Source: Marinilabiliales bacterium
GTDB lineage: Bacteria; Bacteroidota; Bacteroidia; Bacteroidales; PUMT01
Assembly: GCA_007695015.1 (NCBI GenBank)
Contig: REEN01000052.1
Location: forward strand, 1 to 63,252
Length of the DNA stretch: 63,252 bases
Direction: 5' to 3'
Both the position numbers and the translations under genes were made by a program. Numbering within the stretch: the first letter of the stretch is position 1; every line of letters begins with the position of its first letter. The notes below the pieces were generated by a model. That model had not been told where the DNA came from, ran no database searches, and saw only the letters and a program-made list of their open reading frames with translations. Below, one piece after another: positions 8,764 through 22,910 of the stretch.

Positions 8764-9822
8764 CTAATCGCCCTGCCTGATGCAACGAACCGAGAAGCCG
8801 CTGTTGATCATGAACATGTGCCTGTATACTCCCCCGTTGCTGCTGCTGATATTCCTGTACCATGCATGTCCTTCTCCAGCAGTGGTGGATGTCCAGAAAT
8901 TGGCAGACCTTCTAAGCATGTATGACCTGCCGTCAGGATGCCTGTACCCTCCGGGCAGTGCTGAGAAGCCAATCCGGTCAGTCGCCAGTGTATTGGGATC
9001 CCGCCAGTAAACTGTACCCGTTGCCTTCAGGCTGCCTCCTGCATACCTGTCCCTCAACCCGGTACTCCCGGCATCTGCGGCTGACATGCCAAGCTCCGTT
9101 TCAAGCCGTTGCCAGTGTCTGTCTGATGGTACCTCCCAGCCGGCCGGACAAATGCCCCTCTCATCTGCAACCGCATGGAAGTTGTAAAGCTTGCCGTAGA
9201 CCTCACCTAGCTTATCATCGTGAAAATAGTATGTCCATGCACCTTCTGTTGCCGACCTCCATTCATGCACCCCTTCCGGGTTGGGTATTACGTCACCATT
9301 GTTATATCTTGAAACAGACAGGTTGGCGGCGGTCCATTCCAGTCCGGCCGCCCTTAGGGTATTGTAGGTGTTGCCGTCGATATCAGTCACCGATCCCCAG
9401 AATGTTTTGAACCGGAACTCATTGCCGTATGCCACCTCGCCACTGTGGGATGCCCATGACCTTACATAGTAGACAGTCTCCGGCCGGAGTCCCTGAATCT
9501 CCATCCTGAACACAGGGTCGCTCCCCTCTGAGTTCAGCTTGCCTGCATGCCTGCTTACTGAAGGGTCGGGCAACGTATCCCATACCAGTCCCCGCCCCGT
9601 TATACCATTATTATCGCCGTAAACTATGGTGCCTCCGCTTACTGCTGTGGAGGAGGTGATCTCGCTTATAACGCCGGTTGCAATGATAACTGGGCCGGTC
9701 TGTTTAGAGCAGGAAGGGGCGAATATGACTGATAAGAGGAGAAACCAGGTAAAGATTGCAGCGACTTGCACGCGAAGCGAACGAAATATCCTGATGTTAC
9801 CGGTATTGCCTGCCAGAGCCAT
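8764..9822 (-). CDS. FISUMP-domain surface lipoprotein
   Basis: Predicted outer-membrane lipoprotein of 352 residues. The start at 9822 (MALAGN) is preferred over a longer frame from 9948 because it places a hydrophobic segment and the Cys of FAPSC as a lipoprotein-type signal. Residues ~45-155 look like a fibronectin-like module (GLRPETVYYVRSWA). The C-terminal ~200 residues match the Fibrobacter succinogenes major paralogous domain: VTDIDGNTYNT, WTAANL, GRLYNFHAV-like KLYNFHAV, CPAGWEVPSD, LPGGYR, FWTST, FSVRCI. The family is widespread in Bacteroidota and Fibrobacter surface proteins; its function is unknown, with substrate attachment proposed. The gene stands alone, 75 bp above the AKR-FN3 start. 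Confidence 0.85.
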   Translation of the reverse strand: MALAGNTGNIRIFRSLRVQVAAIFTWFLLLSVIFAPSCSKQTGPVIIATGVISEITSSTAVSGGTIVYGDNNGITGRGLVWDTLPDPSVSRHAGKLNSEGSDPVFRMEIQGLRPETVYYVRSWASHSGEVAYGNEFRFKTFWGSVTDIDGNTYNTLRAAGLEWTAANLSVSRYNNGDVIPNPEGVHEWRSATEGAWTYYFHDDKLGEVYGKLYNFHAVADERGICPAGWEVPSDRHWQRLETELGMSAADAGSTGLRDRYAGGSLKATGTVYWRDPNTLATDRIGFSALPGGYRHPDGRSYMLRRSANFWTSTTAGEGHAWYRNISSSNGGVYRHMFMINSGFSVRCIRQGD

Positions 9823-9942
9823 AATTGATGGCGATTTGTGTTTTTTATTATCCTGCACTTTTCCCCTTCCGGAATGAGTTGACGAATTGCCGAAAATAAT
9901 ATTTCGCTGTAAATTAAAAACAGCAGTTGTATTATATTGTTG

Positions 9943-9972
9943 TTTCAAAAATAAGTTTTTTGATTATATTTG
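9943..9972 (+). promoter_or_regulatory. Probable promoter of the phe leader-pheA unit
   Basis: TATATTTG at 9965-9972 is a perfect Bacteroidota -7 box. TTTC at 9943-9946 sits 18 nt upstream in the -33 (TTTG) position with one mismatch. Transcription would then begin within a few bases of the leader-peptide ATG at 9979, so the leader may be translated from a very short or absent 5' UTR. Confidence 0.55.
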
Positions 9973-9978
9973 CCGGAT

Positions 9979-10047
9979 ATGATGATAACTATCAACAACA
10001 GCTTTTTCTTTTTCTTTTTCAGGAGCGATCCGGAAAAGGGACTGTGA
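9979..10047 (+). CDS. pheL: Phenylalanine attenuator leader peptide (22 aa, six Phe in a row)
   Basis: A 22-codon frame starting with a double ATG: MMITINNS, then six consecutive Phe codons (TTT/TTC alternating, 10003-10020), then RSDPEKGL and a TGA at 10045. It lies between a -7 box and an intrinsic terminator and precedes prephenate dehydratase, the committed step to Phe. Ribosomes starved for Phe-tRNA would stall on 10003-10020. The region just after the Phe codons (10027-10043) is complementary to the terminator's 5' arm: GATCCGG pairs with 10079-10085, and GGGACT with 10075-10080. CTTTTTC at 10014-10020 can also pair with 10032-10038, giving the classical 1:2, 2:3, 3:4 segment design. 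Confidence 0.88.
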   Translation: MMITINNSFFFFFFRSDPEKGL

Positions 10048-10072
10048 TATTGCTGTTTACAATATTGTTTGG

Positions 10073-10101
10073 AAAGTCCCGGATCTCCGGGACTTTTTTT
10101 T
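10073..10101 (+). terminator. Attenuator terminator in the pheA leader
   Basis: Perfect hairpin with arms AAAGTCCCGG (10073-10082) and CCGGGACTTT (10087-10096), loop ATCT, then a run of T to 10101. It ends 20 nt before pheA. The 5' arm is alternatively paired by sequence at the leader-peptide stop codon, so it should form only when the leader is fully translated. Confidence 0.92.
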
Positions 10102-10120
10102 AACCAAAACCTGAGTAACC

Positions 10121-11017
10121 ATGACAGAGCAAGACAAGAAGAAGCGTACATTAAGGGTCGCCATCCAGGGCGGTTACGGGGCGTTCCATGAGATTGCCGC
10201 CAGGAAATATTACAGTGACAGGGAACTGACCATTGTGCCGTGCGACACATTTATAGACCTGTTCGATTCGGTGGCAGGCGGCGGTTCGGATGCAGCAGTA
10301 GTGGCCATTGAGAATTCGGTTGCAGGATCGCTTATACCCAATTATGCATTGCTCAGTGGCAGCGGATTGACTGTAACTGGTGAGGTGTACCTCAGGATCG
10401 TCCAGAACCTGATCGGACTGCCGGGACAAAAACAGGAGGATATCACCCAGGTACATTCGCATCCTATGGCGATCCTGCAGTGCCAGGAATATCTTGCGCC
10501 TATGCGCAGCAGGGGAGTGAAGGTGATTGAGTCGATCGATACCGCACTAAGTGCAAAATGGATCAGCGAGAACCGCAAGACCGGGGTGGCAGCACTCGCC
10601 AGTGATCTGGCTGCCGGGATGTACGGACTGGAGATCATTGCCGCAAGTATCGAGAGCAACAAGCGGAACTTCACAAGGTTCCTGATAGCCGAACCTGTCG
10701 CTGAACATGTTACCGAACCCGGAATTGATGACAAGGGCAAACATACTGATAAGGCATCAGTTTGCTTTACGCTTCCCCACGCAGTGGGCAGCCTCTCACA
10801 GGTCCTTTCCGTTTTTGCCTTCTACCGCATAAATCTCTCCAAGATACAGTCACTGCCTGTAGTTGGAAAGGAATGGGAGTATTTCTTTTACCTGGACCTG
10901 CTGTACGACGACGTGTCAATGTACAAAAAATCGCTTGAGGCTGTAAAGCCGTTGATTGACAAGCTGCAGATACTTGGTGAATACAGGGCCGGTGAAAGAA
11001 ATAACGAAAAAATATGA
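10121..11017 (+). CDS. pheA: Prephenate dehydratase with ACT domain
   Basis: Converts prephenate to phenylpyruvate in Phe biosynthesis (cytoplasm). It has 298 residues: the dehydratase domain at about 10-192 includes the AIQGGYGAFHE start, VAIENSVAGS and the TRF motif (185-187) needed for catalysis; the ACT domain lies at about 212-285. The usual ESRP effector motif of the ACT domain reads QSLP here, in a KIQSLP context, as I recall it from other Bacteroidota. There is no chorismate mutase domain. It is expressed from the attenuated leader just upstream and is a one-gene unit; a second promoter and leader for the ilv operon begin right after its stop. Confidence 0.95.
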   Translation: MTEQDKKKRTLRVAIQGGYGAFHEIAARKYYSDRELTIVPCDTFIDLFDSVAGGGSDAAVVAIENSVAGSLIPNYALLSGSGLTVTGEVYLRIVQNLIGLPGQKQEDITQVHSHPMAILQCQEYLAPMRSRGVKVIESIDTALSAKWISENRKTGVAALASDLAAGMYGLEIIAASIESNKRNFTRFLIAEPVAEHVTEPGIDDKGKHTDKASVCFTLPHAVGSLSQVLSVFAFYRINLSKIQSLPVVGKEWEYFFYLDLLYDDVSMYKKSLEAVKPLIDKLQILGEYRAGERNNEKI

Positions 11018-11035
11018 TTTTTTTCATGAATTCTC

Positions 11036-11065
11036 TTTGAACTTAATTAATAATTCCTACATTTG
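11036..11065 (+). promoter_or_regulatory. Promoter of the ilv-leu-thr operon
   Basis: TTTG at 11036-11039 and TACATTTG at 11058-11065, separated by 18 nt, match the Bacteroidota sigma-ABfr consensus (TTTG, about 19 nt, TAnnTTTG) exactly. The start point would be near 11071, giving a short leader ahead of the peptide ATG at 11090. Confidence 0.75.
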
Positions 11066-11089
11066 TCCCGAATTTATGTTATAAAACAT

Positions 11090-11149
11090 ATGCGACACAT
11101 GCTAACATCGATCATCTTTATTATTCTTACCTGTCACGGGAAGAAGTGA
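11090..11149 (+). CDS. ilvL: Branched-chain amino-acid attenuator leader peptide (19 aa)
   Basis: A 19-codon frame, MRHMLTS then Ile-Ile-Phe-Ile-Ile-Leu-Thr (11111-11131), then CHGKK and TGA at 11147. Four Ile codons plus Leu and Thr fall in one block, as expected for a sensor of branched-chain aminoacyl-tRNA. GAAGTGAGA at 11143-11151, which overlaps the leader's stop codon, is perfectly complementary over 9 nt to TCTCACTTC at 11193-11201 in the terminator 5' arm and loop. A ribosome stalled on the Ile/Leu codons leaves this antiterminator free; one reaching the stop covers it and lets the terminator form. An inner ATG at 11099 is an alternative start. Confidence 0.87.
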   Translation: MRHMLTSIIFIILTCHGKK

Positions 11150-11185
11150 GACCGATGTTTGTATAGTCACAATATAAAAAACAAC

Positions 11186-11220
11186 AAAGCCCTCTCACTT
11201 CAAAAGTGAGGGGGCTTTTT
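11186..11220 (+). terminator. Attenuator terminator in the ilv leader
   Basis: Fifteen-pair hairpin: 5' arm 11186-11200 (AAAGCCCTCTCACTT), loop CAA, 3' arm 11204-11218 with a single G-U pair, followed by a T tract ending at 11220. The ilvD start codon is only 7 nt further on, so the ilvD ribosome-binding region is next to the terminator. Confidence 0.93.
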
Positions 11221-11227
11221 AAGTTAA

Positions 11228-13129
11228 ATGGCTATGCAGCGGAAACTGAGAAGCGACACCACTACCCGGGGCAGACTTAATGCCGGCGCAAGAAGCCTCT
11301 GGAGGGCAAACGGGATGAGGCATGAACAGATGGGCAAACCTGTCGTGGCCATTGCAAATTCATTCACACAATTTGTTCCAGGCCATGCGCACCTGCATGA
11401 TATCGGGCAGAAAGTGAAGAAACTTGTAGAGAAACAGGGATGCTTTGCTGCCGAGTTTAATACCATTGCAGTTGACGACGGCATTGCCATGGGACATAAT
11501 GGAATGCTCTATTCGCTGCCGTCGCGCGAGCTTATAGCCGACAGCGTTGAATATATGGTCAACGCACATTGTGCCGATGCACTTGTATGCATAAGCAACT
11601 GCGACAAGATAACCCCTGGCATGCTGATGGCAGCCATGCGGCTGAACATTCCGACCGTGTTTGTCAGTGGCGGACCCATGGAGGCTGGCAGGCACCGCGG
11701 CAGGGCAGTTGACCTGGTCGATGCCATGGTCGCCGCGGCCGACCCTTCGGCTGCTGACGAGGACTTATATGATATCGAAAAAAATGCCTGTCCCACCTGC
11801 GGATCCTGTTCGGGTATGTTCACAGCCAATTCGATGAACTGTCTTAATGAGGCTATCGGACTTGCCCTTCCGGGGAACGGTACGGTGGTTGCCACCCACG
11901 TCAACCGTTTATCGCTTTTCGAGGAGGCAGCCTCGCTTATAGTTTCGCTGGCGGAGAGGTATTATGGCAGCGGCGATGAGACCGTCCTGCCCAGGTCCAT
12001 AGCAACTCGCGATGCCTTTCTCAATGCTATGAGGCTCGATATTGCCATGGGAGGATCGACAAACACCGTTCTCCATCTCCTGGCTATCGCTCATGAAGCC
12101 GGAGTTGATTTTACCATGAAGGATATCGACAGGCTTTCGCGCACAACGCCTGTACTGTGCAAGGTGGCGCCCAGCAGCAGCTACCATGTAGAGGATGTAA
12201 ACCGGGCGGGAGGCGTGTTCGGTATCATGGCTGCACTCCGCGATGCAGGGCTGATTGATACGGATGTGCCCCGAATAGACTATCCCACCCTTGGCGATGC
12301 GCTGAGGGATTACGACCTGAAGTCGTCGTCGGCCATACAGAAGGCGTGGGACATATACGCAAGCGCACCCGGCGGCTTTCATAACCTGGTGCTGGGGTCG
12401 CAACGTACCGTTTACGAGAACCTTGACCTTGACCGTGAGAATGGTTGTATAAGGTCCGTTTCCAGTGCATGGTCAGTTGATGGGGGACTTGCAGTTCTTT
12501 ACGGCAATATCGCACCCTGCGGGTGTATAGTGAAAACGTCCGGTGTTGACCCGGAGTTGCTTCACTTTGAAGGTCCTGCCCGGGTATTTGAATCGCAGGA
12601 TGATGCATGCAGGGCAATACTTGATGGTGATATAAAGGCAGGAGAGGCGGTGATCATAAGGTATGAAGGACCACGCGGCGGACCGGGCATGCAGGAGATG
12701 CTCTATCCCACTTCATATCTTAAGTCCGCGCAACTGGGCGCCTCATGTGCCCTTGTCACCGACGGTCGGTTCTCGGGGGGTACAAGCGGACTGTCAATCG
12801 GACATGTTTCGCCCGAGGCTGCCGCAGGAGGCCCTCTTGCTCTTTTAAGGGACGGCGACAGGATAGTGATCGATATACCAGGAAGGGAGATAAATGCAGG
12901 TGTGCCTGATCAGGAGCTCTCAGCCCGGCGCAAAGAGGAGCTGCAGCGTAACGCTGATGCATTTACCCCCGCCGTGCGAAAGAGGAATGTCTCTTTATCG
13001 CTCAGGCTTTATGCCTCGGTAGTGTCGTCGGCCGACAGGGGAGCCGTAAGAATGCTTACCGGTGCAGGTAATACTGCCTGCAGCCATGAAAATGAGAATT
13101 CAGGCCTGGAGTACAGGCAGCAACAATAA
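11228..13129 (+). CDS. ilvD: Dihydroxy-acid dehydratase
   Basis: Fe-S enzyme that dehydrates 2,3-dihydroxy-isovalerate and -methylvalerate to the keto acids of Val, Leu and Ile. It is 633 residues, slightly longer than the usual ~560-616 because of a C-terminal tail. It follows the E. coli-type sequence closely: [34 protein letters not shown], cluster cysteines in [11 protein letters not shown] and [11 protein letters not shown], and late motifs GPRGGPGM and TDGRFSGGT. It is the first structural gene after the attenuator, and ilvB follows 8 nt after its stop. Confidence 0.97.
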
Positions 13130-21842: not shown

Positions 21843-22910
21843 ATGAACATAAAAATTGCGGTGCTTGCCGGCGACGGCATAGGACCTGAAATTACACGGC
21901 AGGCGGTCAAGGTCATTGACCAGGTTTGCAAGAAGACCGGGCACATACCCGGATACGGCGAAGGCCTTGTCGGCGCAGTTGCAATTGACAAAACCGGCGA
22001 TCCTTATCCCGACGAGACCCATAACCTCTGCATGGCATCGGATGCGGTCCTGTTCGGGGCCATAGGCGACCCCAGGTTTGACAATGATCCCAAAGCCAGG
22101 GTGAGGCCAGAGAAGGGGCTGCTGGAGATGAGACAGAAACTTGGCCTTTATGCAAATATAAGGCCGGTGATGACCTTCGAATCCCTGGTCCATAAGTCAC
22201 CCCTGCGTGAGGATATTGTTGCCGGTGCCGACTTTATAACTGTGAGGGAGCTGACCGGCGGCATCTATTTCGGTCGGCCCCAGGGGAGGTCTGAGGACGG
22301 CACCACTGCCTACGATACCTGTGTCTATCACAAGTATGAGATAGAGCGCATCTGCAAGCTGGCCTTCGGGTTCGCCATGAAGAGACGTAAGAAGCTGACG
22401 ATGGTTGACAAGGCGAATGTGCTTGCCACATCCAGGCTGTGGAGGGAGACGATGCAGGAGCTGGCGCCATCTTACCCGGAGGTAGAGGTTGAGTATATGT
22501 TTGTCGATAATGCCGCAATGCAGATAATTCAGTGGCCCAAAAGGTTTGACGTGATAGTTACCGAGAACATGTTCGGCGACATACTTACCGATGAGGCCAG
22601 CGTCATAACCGGTTCCCTGGGAATGCTGCCATCGGCATCCATCGGGGTGCATACCTCGGTCTTCGAACCAATTCACGGCTCCTATCCCCAGGCTGCGGGC
22701 AGGAATATTGCAAACCCGGTGGCCACGGTGTTGTCGGCCGCCATGATGTTCGAGCAAGCCTTTGACAGCGAAGAGGGCGGCAGGCTGATCAGGATGGCGG
22801 TTGAAGCTTCTCTTGAGGCAGGTGTCGTTACCGGCGATATCGACAGCACAGACCCGGCTTCGACCGATGAGGTGGGGGACTGGCTGGCCGGATGGATAGA
22901 AAAGAGTTAA
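21843..22910 (+). CDS. leuB: 3-isopropylmalate dehydrogenase
   Basis: NAD-dependent oxidative decarboxylase completing 2-oxoisocaproate formation; 355 residues. Begins with AGDGIGPE; substrate and metal motifs [24 protein letters not shown], and [12 protein letters not shown] are all visible, and the NAD-site motif [12 protein letters not shown] is near residue 278. Starts 27 nt after the preceding synthase; thrA begins 14 nt after its stop. Confidence 0.97.

Follow-up and report, generated by a model that had tools for sequence, protein, structure and literature searches.

Anatomy of a putative phenylalanine attenuator upstream of pheA in a Marinilabiliales bacterium, with a comparison of aromatic leaders across Bacteroidota

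Described attenuators and the pheA locus

The pheA gene of enteric bacteria is preceded by an attenuator with a Phe-rich leader peptide, overlapping 1:2, 2:3, and 3:4 stems, and a terminator before pheA, and the enteric pheA protein is fused to chorismate mutase. In Bacteroidota, an attenuator has been predicted (Merino) before the B. thetaiotaomicron operon pheA>hisHb>aroAIb-aroQ>tyrA (PMC1173090, Table 7), and the accessible text on F. psychrophilum mentions a structured 5' element before pheA as well as attenuation clues upstream of amino-acid operons generally (PMC9723704). Among the motifs listed for Bacteroidetes is Bacteroid-trp (RF01692; PMC2864571, Table 1). Outside this phylum, the rnTrpL attenuator of Sinorhizobium meliloti is leaderless, its transcript beginning at the trpL ATG (PMC7298713), and the Salmonella mgtCBR leader holds two short ORFs, each with an attenuator, which sense different signals (PMC3641672). 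A literature search of mainly open-access sources, as far as their accessible text goes, yielded no description that we recognised of the Phe-leader, leaderless, tandem, or codon aspects in Bacteroidetes. pheA attenuators have been predicted earlier in Bacteroidota, and what is new here is the comparison across loci and the predicted near-leaderless layout.

The window, by which we mean the whole 63,252-nt stretch of DNA analysed, comes from a Marinilabiliales genome of 3.4 Mb in 118 contigs, and carries pheA on the forward strand (10121..11017, ATG at 10121). According to the ORF call, Pfam, and NCBIfam, it is a stand-alone gene encoding prephenate dehydratase; the product matches Pfam PDT with 168 bits (cut-off 25.2), and NCBIfam prephenate dehydratase models match it with scores under their curated cut-offs. 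The initial annotation had proposed a complete phenylalanine attenuator controlling pheA. The anatomy is readable in the sequence, and by this anatomy the element upstream of pheA is a ribosome-mediated Phe attenuator, while the control of pheA by Phe is what such an anatomy predicts. Divergent from pheA lies a gene with a FISUMP (Fib_succ_major) domain (8764-9900, minus strand), which by eye has a lipoprotein-like N-terminus; its listed TTG start at 9948, near the pheA promoter, is probably wrong.

Anatomy and folding of the pheA leader

A Bacteroidota sigma-A -7 box, TATATTTG, conserved in the genus, is located at 9965..9972 (+). A possible -33 element (TTG TTG, 9937..9942, +), 22 nt from the box, is weak and showed no conservation in the genus leader alignment. 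The leader peptide MMITINNSFFFFFFRSDPEKGL, also conserved in the genus, is encoded by 22 codons at 9979..10047 (+), with the stop TGA at 10045-10047, and its sensor is a row of six Phe codons (TTT TTC, three times) at 10003..10020 (+). An intrinsic terminator, AAAGTCCCGG(ATCT)CCGGGACTTT, follows at 10073-10096 with T to 10101; it has a 10-bp stem and a 4-nt loop, and the T tract ends 20 nt before the pheA start. The locus therefore possesses what marks an amino-acid attenuator, namely a leader ORF rich in codons for the pathway product (six Phe) and a terminator between this ORF and pheA. A simple sigma-70 promoter and terminator scan, which is uninformative for this phylum, detected neither the promoter nor the terminator of pheA. 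The pheA promoter is not of the sigma-70 type, and the terminator was probably missed because its stem absorbs the T run.

Several strands of the leader are able to pair in alternative ways. Segment 1 (inner strand 10012..10020, +, the tail of the Phe codons) pairs in the predicted fold with 10033-10041; segment 2, the antiterminator strand GATCCggaaaaGGGACT (10027..10043, +), lies beside the leader stop and can pair with 10075-10085; segment 3 is the terminator 5' arm (10073..10082, +), and segment 4 its 3' arm with the T tract (10087..10101, +), both delimited with the masked folds described below. The initial annotation had placed a 22-codon peptide with six Phe codons in a row between the -7 box and the terminator, had paired the Phe-codon tail with the segment after it, and had described the stretch beside the stop as complementary to the terminator arm. 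Its coordinates are correct to the base: 10014-10020 (CTTTTTC) is exactly complementary to 10032-10038 (GGAAAAG), and the complement of 10075-10085 (AGTCCCGGATC) is found inside 10027-10043, split by six bases. The 1:2 hairpin is wider than was first described, because its base joins 9997..10002 (AACAGC, +, just before the Phe run) to 10052..10057 (GCTGTT, +, just after the stop), outside the inner helix. This basal helix is predicted for six of nine same-genus leaders (not for G012, G007, and G015), and AACAGC:GCTGTT is replaced by the compensatory AACGGC:GCCGTT in G013. The terminator arm GGTCCC and leader tail GGGGCC of G005 correspond to AGTCCC and GGGACT in the window. A MAFFT alignment of the nine leaders misaligned the basal helix and one terminator, and it was not used for pair counts.

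The pheA leader folds with z = -4.87, and none of 200 dinucleotide shuffles was equally stable. For the masked folds, the leader was folded up to the terminator 3' arm, and a ribosome was assumed to hide the 18 nt before and the 12 nt after the A-site codon. With the ribosome on the Phe codons (codons 9-14), the expected number of 2:3 pairs was 11.1, 11.3, 10.7, 10.7, 8.1, and 7.3, respectively. It was 0.0 for codons 1-2 and 4.8-8.4 for codons 3-8; beyond the Phe run, it fell from 6.2 (codon 15) to 1.6 (codon 16) and then to 0.0 (codons 17-23). 2:3 pairing in the window is thus not exclusive to stalls at Phe codons, as codons 3-8 and 15 also allow it. When no ribosome was present, 2:3 pairs fell to 0.0 and 1:2 formed instead. 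In these models, the 1:2, 2:3, and 3:4 stems of the window are mutually exclusive, so that the switch logic suggested at first holds in silico. In full-length equilibrium folds the terminator wins in every masked state; therefore, antitermination would have to be kinetic, as in other attenuators. A coarser measure, which scored every pair of the terminator arm with upstream sequence, was applied to 114 units. The strongest aromatic stall exceeded the stop state by more than 3 pairs in 77 of them, the stop state had at most 1.5 pairs in 21, and both strict criteria held in 20. Among nine same-genus leaders it gave a clean switch in the window only; the stop states of the other eight keep 1.7-7.0 pairs, and in G013 the stop state exceeds the stall state. 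This measure was judged too crude, therefore no support was drawn from it, and we relied on the window fold and the swap test below.

On this basis, a ribosome-mediated transcription attenuator very probably sets pheA expression according to the supply of charged tRNA-Phe. Transcription would begin about 2 bases upstream of the leader AUG, and the near-leaderless end would be where a ribosome loads. When Phe is ample, the ribosome would reach the stop codon and cover segment 2, the 3:4 terminator would form, and transcription would end near 10101. When Phe is short, the ribosome would stall on the six Phe codons and cover segment 1, so that segments 2 and 3 could pair ahead of the synthesis of segment 4, and pheA would be transcribed. 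If the leader is not translated at all, 1:2 would form and transcription would terminate. From the elements, their conservation and complementarity, and the match between codons and operons described below, we infer the transcription start, translation, stalling, and termination that this scheme includes.

A stable leader structure would also suit another RNA sensor (a T-box, a riboswitch, or a protein-bound leader) in which the Phe codons occur by chance. The conserved core, however, is the coding run itself, and no Rfam family reached its gathering score anywhere in the window, T-box leaders included. A permissive Rfam scan of 9900-11230 returned 23 sub-threshold hits, none of which was a T-box or an amino-acid riboswitch. 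We consider such a sensor extremely improbable.

The leader peptide had also been suggested to start near-leaderless. By analogy with F. psychrophilum, where the sigma-A box spans -12 to -5 (PMC9723704), a transcription start at 9977 (+) and a 5'UTR of 2 nt are predicted in the window. The suggestion gains from the box-ATG spacing: the TAnnTTTG box starts 13-15 nt before the leader ATG in all nine same-genus leaders, where the intervening bases have changed, and the same rule predicts a 5'UTR of 1-3 nt in all nine. As background, 5'UTRs shorter than 10 nt make up about 3.7% in B. thetaiotaomicron (PMC7366714, from the text accessible to us), leaderless mRNAs make up 5.5% in F. psychrophilum, and the phylum is described as being without Shine-Dalgarno sequences (PMC9723704). 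Within the window, the background consists of just eight box-gene pairs, including one with 0 nt. At 21843 (+), the first in-frame ATG of an ORF coincides with the predicted transcription start after a TATCTTTG box (predicted 5'UTR 0 nt).

Attenuation may be right and the near-leaderless start wrong, if the leader is translated from a longer 5'UTR of another promoter. The start in the window is a prediction, and in the order draw the predicted 5'UTR is at least 11 nt (median 18) in each of the 45 units with a box. Even in the same genome, the ilv leader described below has a predicted 5'UTR of 20 nt, and the leader of the tyrA operon starts about 32 nt after a non-consensus TATTATTG. Against a longer 5'UTR stand the invariable presence of the box 13-15 nt before the ATG in the genus and a genus alignment in which no other promoter-like element stood out. 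Short predicted 5'UTRs also recur elsewhere, in 3 of 19 boxed class units (at most 4 nt; L170, L181, and L183, 2-4 nt) and in L025, a named Bacteroidales contig outside the order draw (4 nt). Predicted 5'UTRs are lacking for 18 of 63 order units and 17 of 36 class units, in which no consensus box lies within 75 nt. We regard the longer 5'UTR as unlikely, though with appreciable weight, and tentatively favour the near-leaderless start.

Distribution, co-variation, and codon content of aromatic leaders

The family search covered 16 genomes, 13 of which had a match: ten same-genus orthologues (window included), two in a sister genus, and one divergent (G008). The G008 pheA match (36% identity, L013) was judged non-orthologous and left out, and G021 (two fragments) and G267 (partial match) were left out as well. 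The initial annotation had its reading depend on related genomes keeping the Phe-codon run and the terminator; both, together with the box, are kept in 9 of the 10 same-genus orthologues. The tenth, G006 (L138), keeps the -7 box, segment 2, and terminator upstream of pheA but lacks roughly a dozen codons, the Phe run among them; either the sensor has been lost naturally or the assembly is at fault. In the sister genus (g2; L139 and L140), pheA lacks a leader and attenuator, but the tyrA-DAHP operon does have an aromatic leader (L223-L225).

In the order search, pheA was matched in 68 of 148 genomes, and 65 loci outside the genus were examined. Under strict rules, an aromatic leader followed by a terminator precedes pheA at 55 of them; L113 and L126 show both under looser rules only, and L107, one of the ten misses, has just 21 nt of upstream sequence. 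The class-wide draw matched pheA in 57 of 197 genomes. It added 52 loci, three of which belong to the order already searched, and an aromatic leader-terminator unit was present at 33 of the 52. A search of named contigs found the unit at six of ten loci examined. L024 (a duplicate of L083), L014-L019 (repeats of family-search genomes), and L031-L035 (records named as other phyla) were left out.

In the swap test, which covered 78 units, the pairing of each leader tail with the terminator 5' arm of its own unit was compared with its pairing to the arms of the other units and with that of shuffled tails. The means were -13.7 kcal/mol for the own arm, -9.1 kcal/mol for arms of other genomes, and -6.5 kcal/mol for shuffled tails. 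The own arm ranked within the best 10% of swaps in 50 units and beat 95% of shuffles in 66 (48 and 60 of 69, respectively, when the genus is set aside). The window pairs at -12.1 kcal/mol, placing it at 7% of swaps and 3% of shuffles, that is, ahead of 97% of shuffled tails. On average, own partners pair better than swapped ones, which indicates that leader tail and terminator arm co-vary across units.

Leader codons follow operon content. The downstream genes were identified by BLAST comparison with reference proteins, and stand-alone status was judged on the fetched downstream DNA, from 2.3 kb (L137) to 9.2 kb; L066, whose contig ends 1.1 kb after pheA, was left out. Of the unit-bearing loci in the order and the genus, 12 have a stand-alone pheA (nine of the genus plus G103, G029, and G039), and 51 have pheA with DAHP synthase, an aminotransferase, and/or tyrA, some also with aroB, aroD, and aroC. 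In the 12 stand-alone loci, Tyr makes up a share of 0-0.14 of the aromatic cluster, and in the 51 multi-gene loci this Tyr share is at least 0.17 (median 0.40), with no overlap. With the genus counted once (4 versus 51), the Mann-Whitney test gave p = 4.8e-4, relatedness among the 51 being uncorrected, and Fisher's test gave 2.9e-6 at a cut of 0.15 chosen after seeing the data, again uncorrected for that relatedness. The cluster measure was adopted after a fixed 12-residue window, under which Tyr was absent in 6 of 11 stand-alone loci (more than 4 kb downstream) and in none of 51 multi-gene loci. In the class set, all 33 unit loci have another aromatic gene downstream, and their Tyr share is at least 0.18. 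Trp occurs in the cluster at 15 of 64 order and genus loci and at 13 of 33 class loci. Leaders of stand-alone pheA are Phe-only or nearly so, and those of multi-gene aromatic operons mix Phe, Tyr, and sometimes Trp. Two stand-alone pheA genes without any leader (L103 in G141 and L115 in G112) and the leaderless-operon pheA of sister genus g2, which likewise has no leader peptide unit, run counter to a simple rule.

The lineages with a stand-alone pheA leader carry tyrA elsewhere. In the genus of the window, a separate operon of tyrA, DAHP synthase, and aroB has its own leader, whose antiterminator is of the AAAAGGGGCC type and whose terminator contains GGCCCCTT. The identity of tyrA was confirmed by Pfam in the genomes tested, and in G012 Pfam named prephenate dehydrogenase and 3-dehydroquinate synthase in this operon. 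The genome of the window has the tyrA leader MAPVHTYYAWSFFFFYFQNKRGHAV upstream of tyrA (L253:1574-1651, contig C51), and DAHP synthase is encoded at the beginning of a different contig. The tyrA leaders of the genus, readable in nine genomes, are mixed and mostly Phe-dominated (Tyr share 0.14-0.50, Trp in six), and here the contrast between Phe and Tyr leaders is weakest. In G008 (L228), the terminator of the tyrA operon is separated from tyrA by a short tandem repeat (about 275-440, read in the direction of tyrA) with units such as GAGCAAGAAAAGAACAGGAT. G039 has the leader MIKNISVFAYFYYYFYFSKK before aminotransferase-DAHP-tyrA (Tyr share 0.56), and its congener G141 has a similar tyrA-operon leader with the same share of 0.56; G029 has MNNTFGYYAFYYYFFYNN before tyrA-DAHP (Tyr share 0.60); and G103 has two leaders in series before aminotransferase-tyrA-DAHP (Tyr shares 0.50 and 0.62). 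All four lineages with a stand-alone pheA leader therefore bear a Tyr-containing leader, Tyr-rich in three, on a separate tyrA operon. We read this coexistence of a Phe-only or nearly Phe-only pheA leader with a Tyr-containing tyrA leader as the strongest evidence for amino-acid sensing.

The same observations bear on whether the terminator is fixed and the ORF a bystander, in which case pheA transcription would be lowered and Phe would not be sensed. G006, which lost the Phe codons and kept the terminator and segment 2, speaks for such a fixed terminator, since it implies that the terminator can persist alone. A bystander ORF sits poorly, however, with codon content that tracks operon content, on which the stand-alone pheA loci of four lineages agree, and with the co-variation of leader tail and terminator arm. 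We consider the fixed terminator very unlikely and retain attenuation by Phe.

Repeated units were found as well. Tandem aromatic leader-terminator units precede pheA at 11 of the 55 order loci, eight under strict rules (L073, L077, L079, L093, L094, L109, L114, and L119) and three read by eye (L097, L111, and L116), and no consensus -7 box was found between units. The second unit of L093 is doubtful, its tail-arm pairing being worse than 99% of swaps. Look-alikes occur at the class loci L176 and L219 (L180 is doubtful) and before the tyrA operon of G103 (L272), and the pheA leader of the window is a single unit.

The window carries a second putative attenuator, read from sequence and folds, at 11058..11220 (+), before ilvD-ilvB-ilvN-ilvC-leuA. 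It comprises a -7 box (11058-11065), the leader MRHMLTSIIFIILTCHGKK with Ile codons (11090-11149), an antiterminator AAGTGAG (11144-11150), and a terminator (11186-11220). The gene ilvD was named by NCBIfam and Pfam, and ilvB, ilvN, ilvC, and leuA were named by reading of the sequence, outside the family search. With 32 nt from the start of its box to the first ATG, the ilv leader is not near-leaderless.

Comparison with described systems

The comparative pattern is more interesting than the pheA element itself. We tentatively propose, with slightly less than even confidence, a single re-tunable family of aromatic attenuators in Bacteroidota, in which a stand-alone pheA with an attenuator has a Phe-only or nearly Phe-only leader, an operon of tyrA and DAHP synthase has a mixed or Tyr-rich one, about one-fifth of the unit-bearing pheA loci of the order are tandem, and the Phe sensor of the genus would be a leaderless message with ribosome loading at its 5' end. 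Scattered predictions are replaced by a phylum-scale picture, with units at 55 of 65 and 33 of 52 pheA loci. Operon splits act as natural codon-swap experiments, which link leader codons to operon products without bench work, and they predict that changing the Phe codons to Tyr should change the ligand of the sensor. If the sensor peptide is indeed leaderless, it would be a clean system for studying the synchrony of ribosome loading and transcription in attenuation.

Like the enteric pheA (pheL) attenuator, described by Rfam RF01859 (Phe_leader), the window has a Phe-rich peptide, overlapping stems, and a terminator before pheA, and it scores 23.1 bits against the RF01859 gathering threshold of 55 (E = 0.42). 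It differs from the enteric system in promoter type, in its predicted near-leaderless start, and in a protein that consists of PDT only. The multi-gene loci surveyed here look like the type predicted for the pheA operon of B. thetaiotaomicron. The accessible text on the Bacteroides and F. psychrophilum elements gives no leader sequence, codon-operon comparison, or leaderless start. Unlike Salmonella mgtCBR, the tandem units found in other genomes all read aromatic codons. The S. meliloti rnTrpL transcript begins at the leader ATG within a classic attenuator, a layout close to the one predicted for the window, but that system senses Trp and belongs to Alphaproteobacteria.
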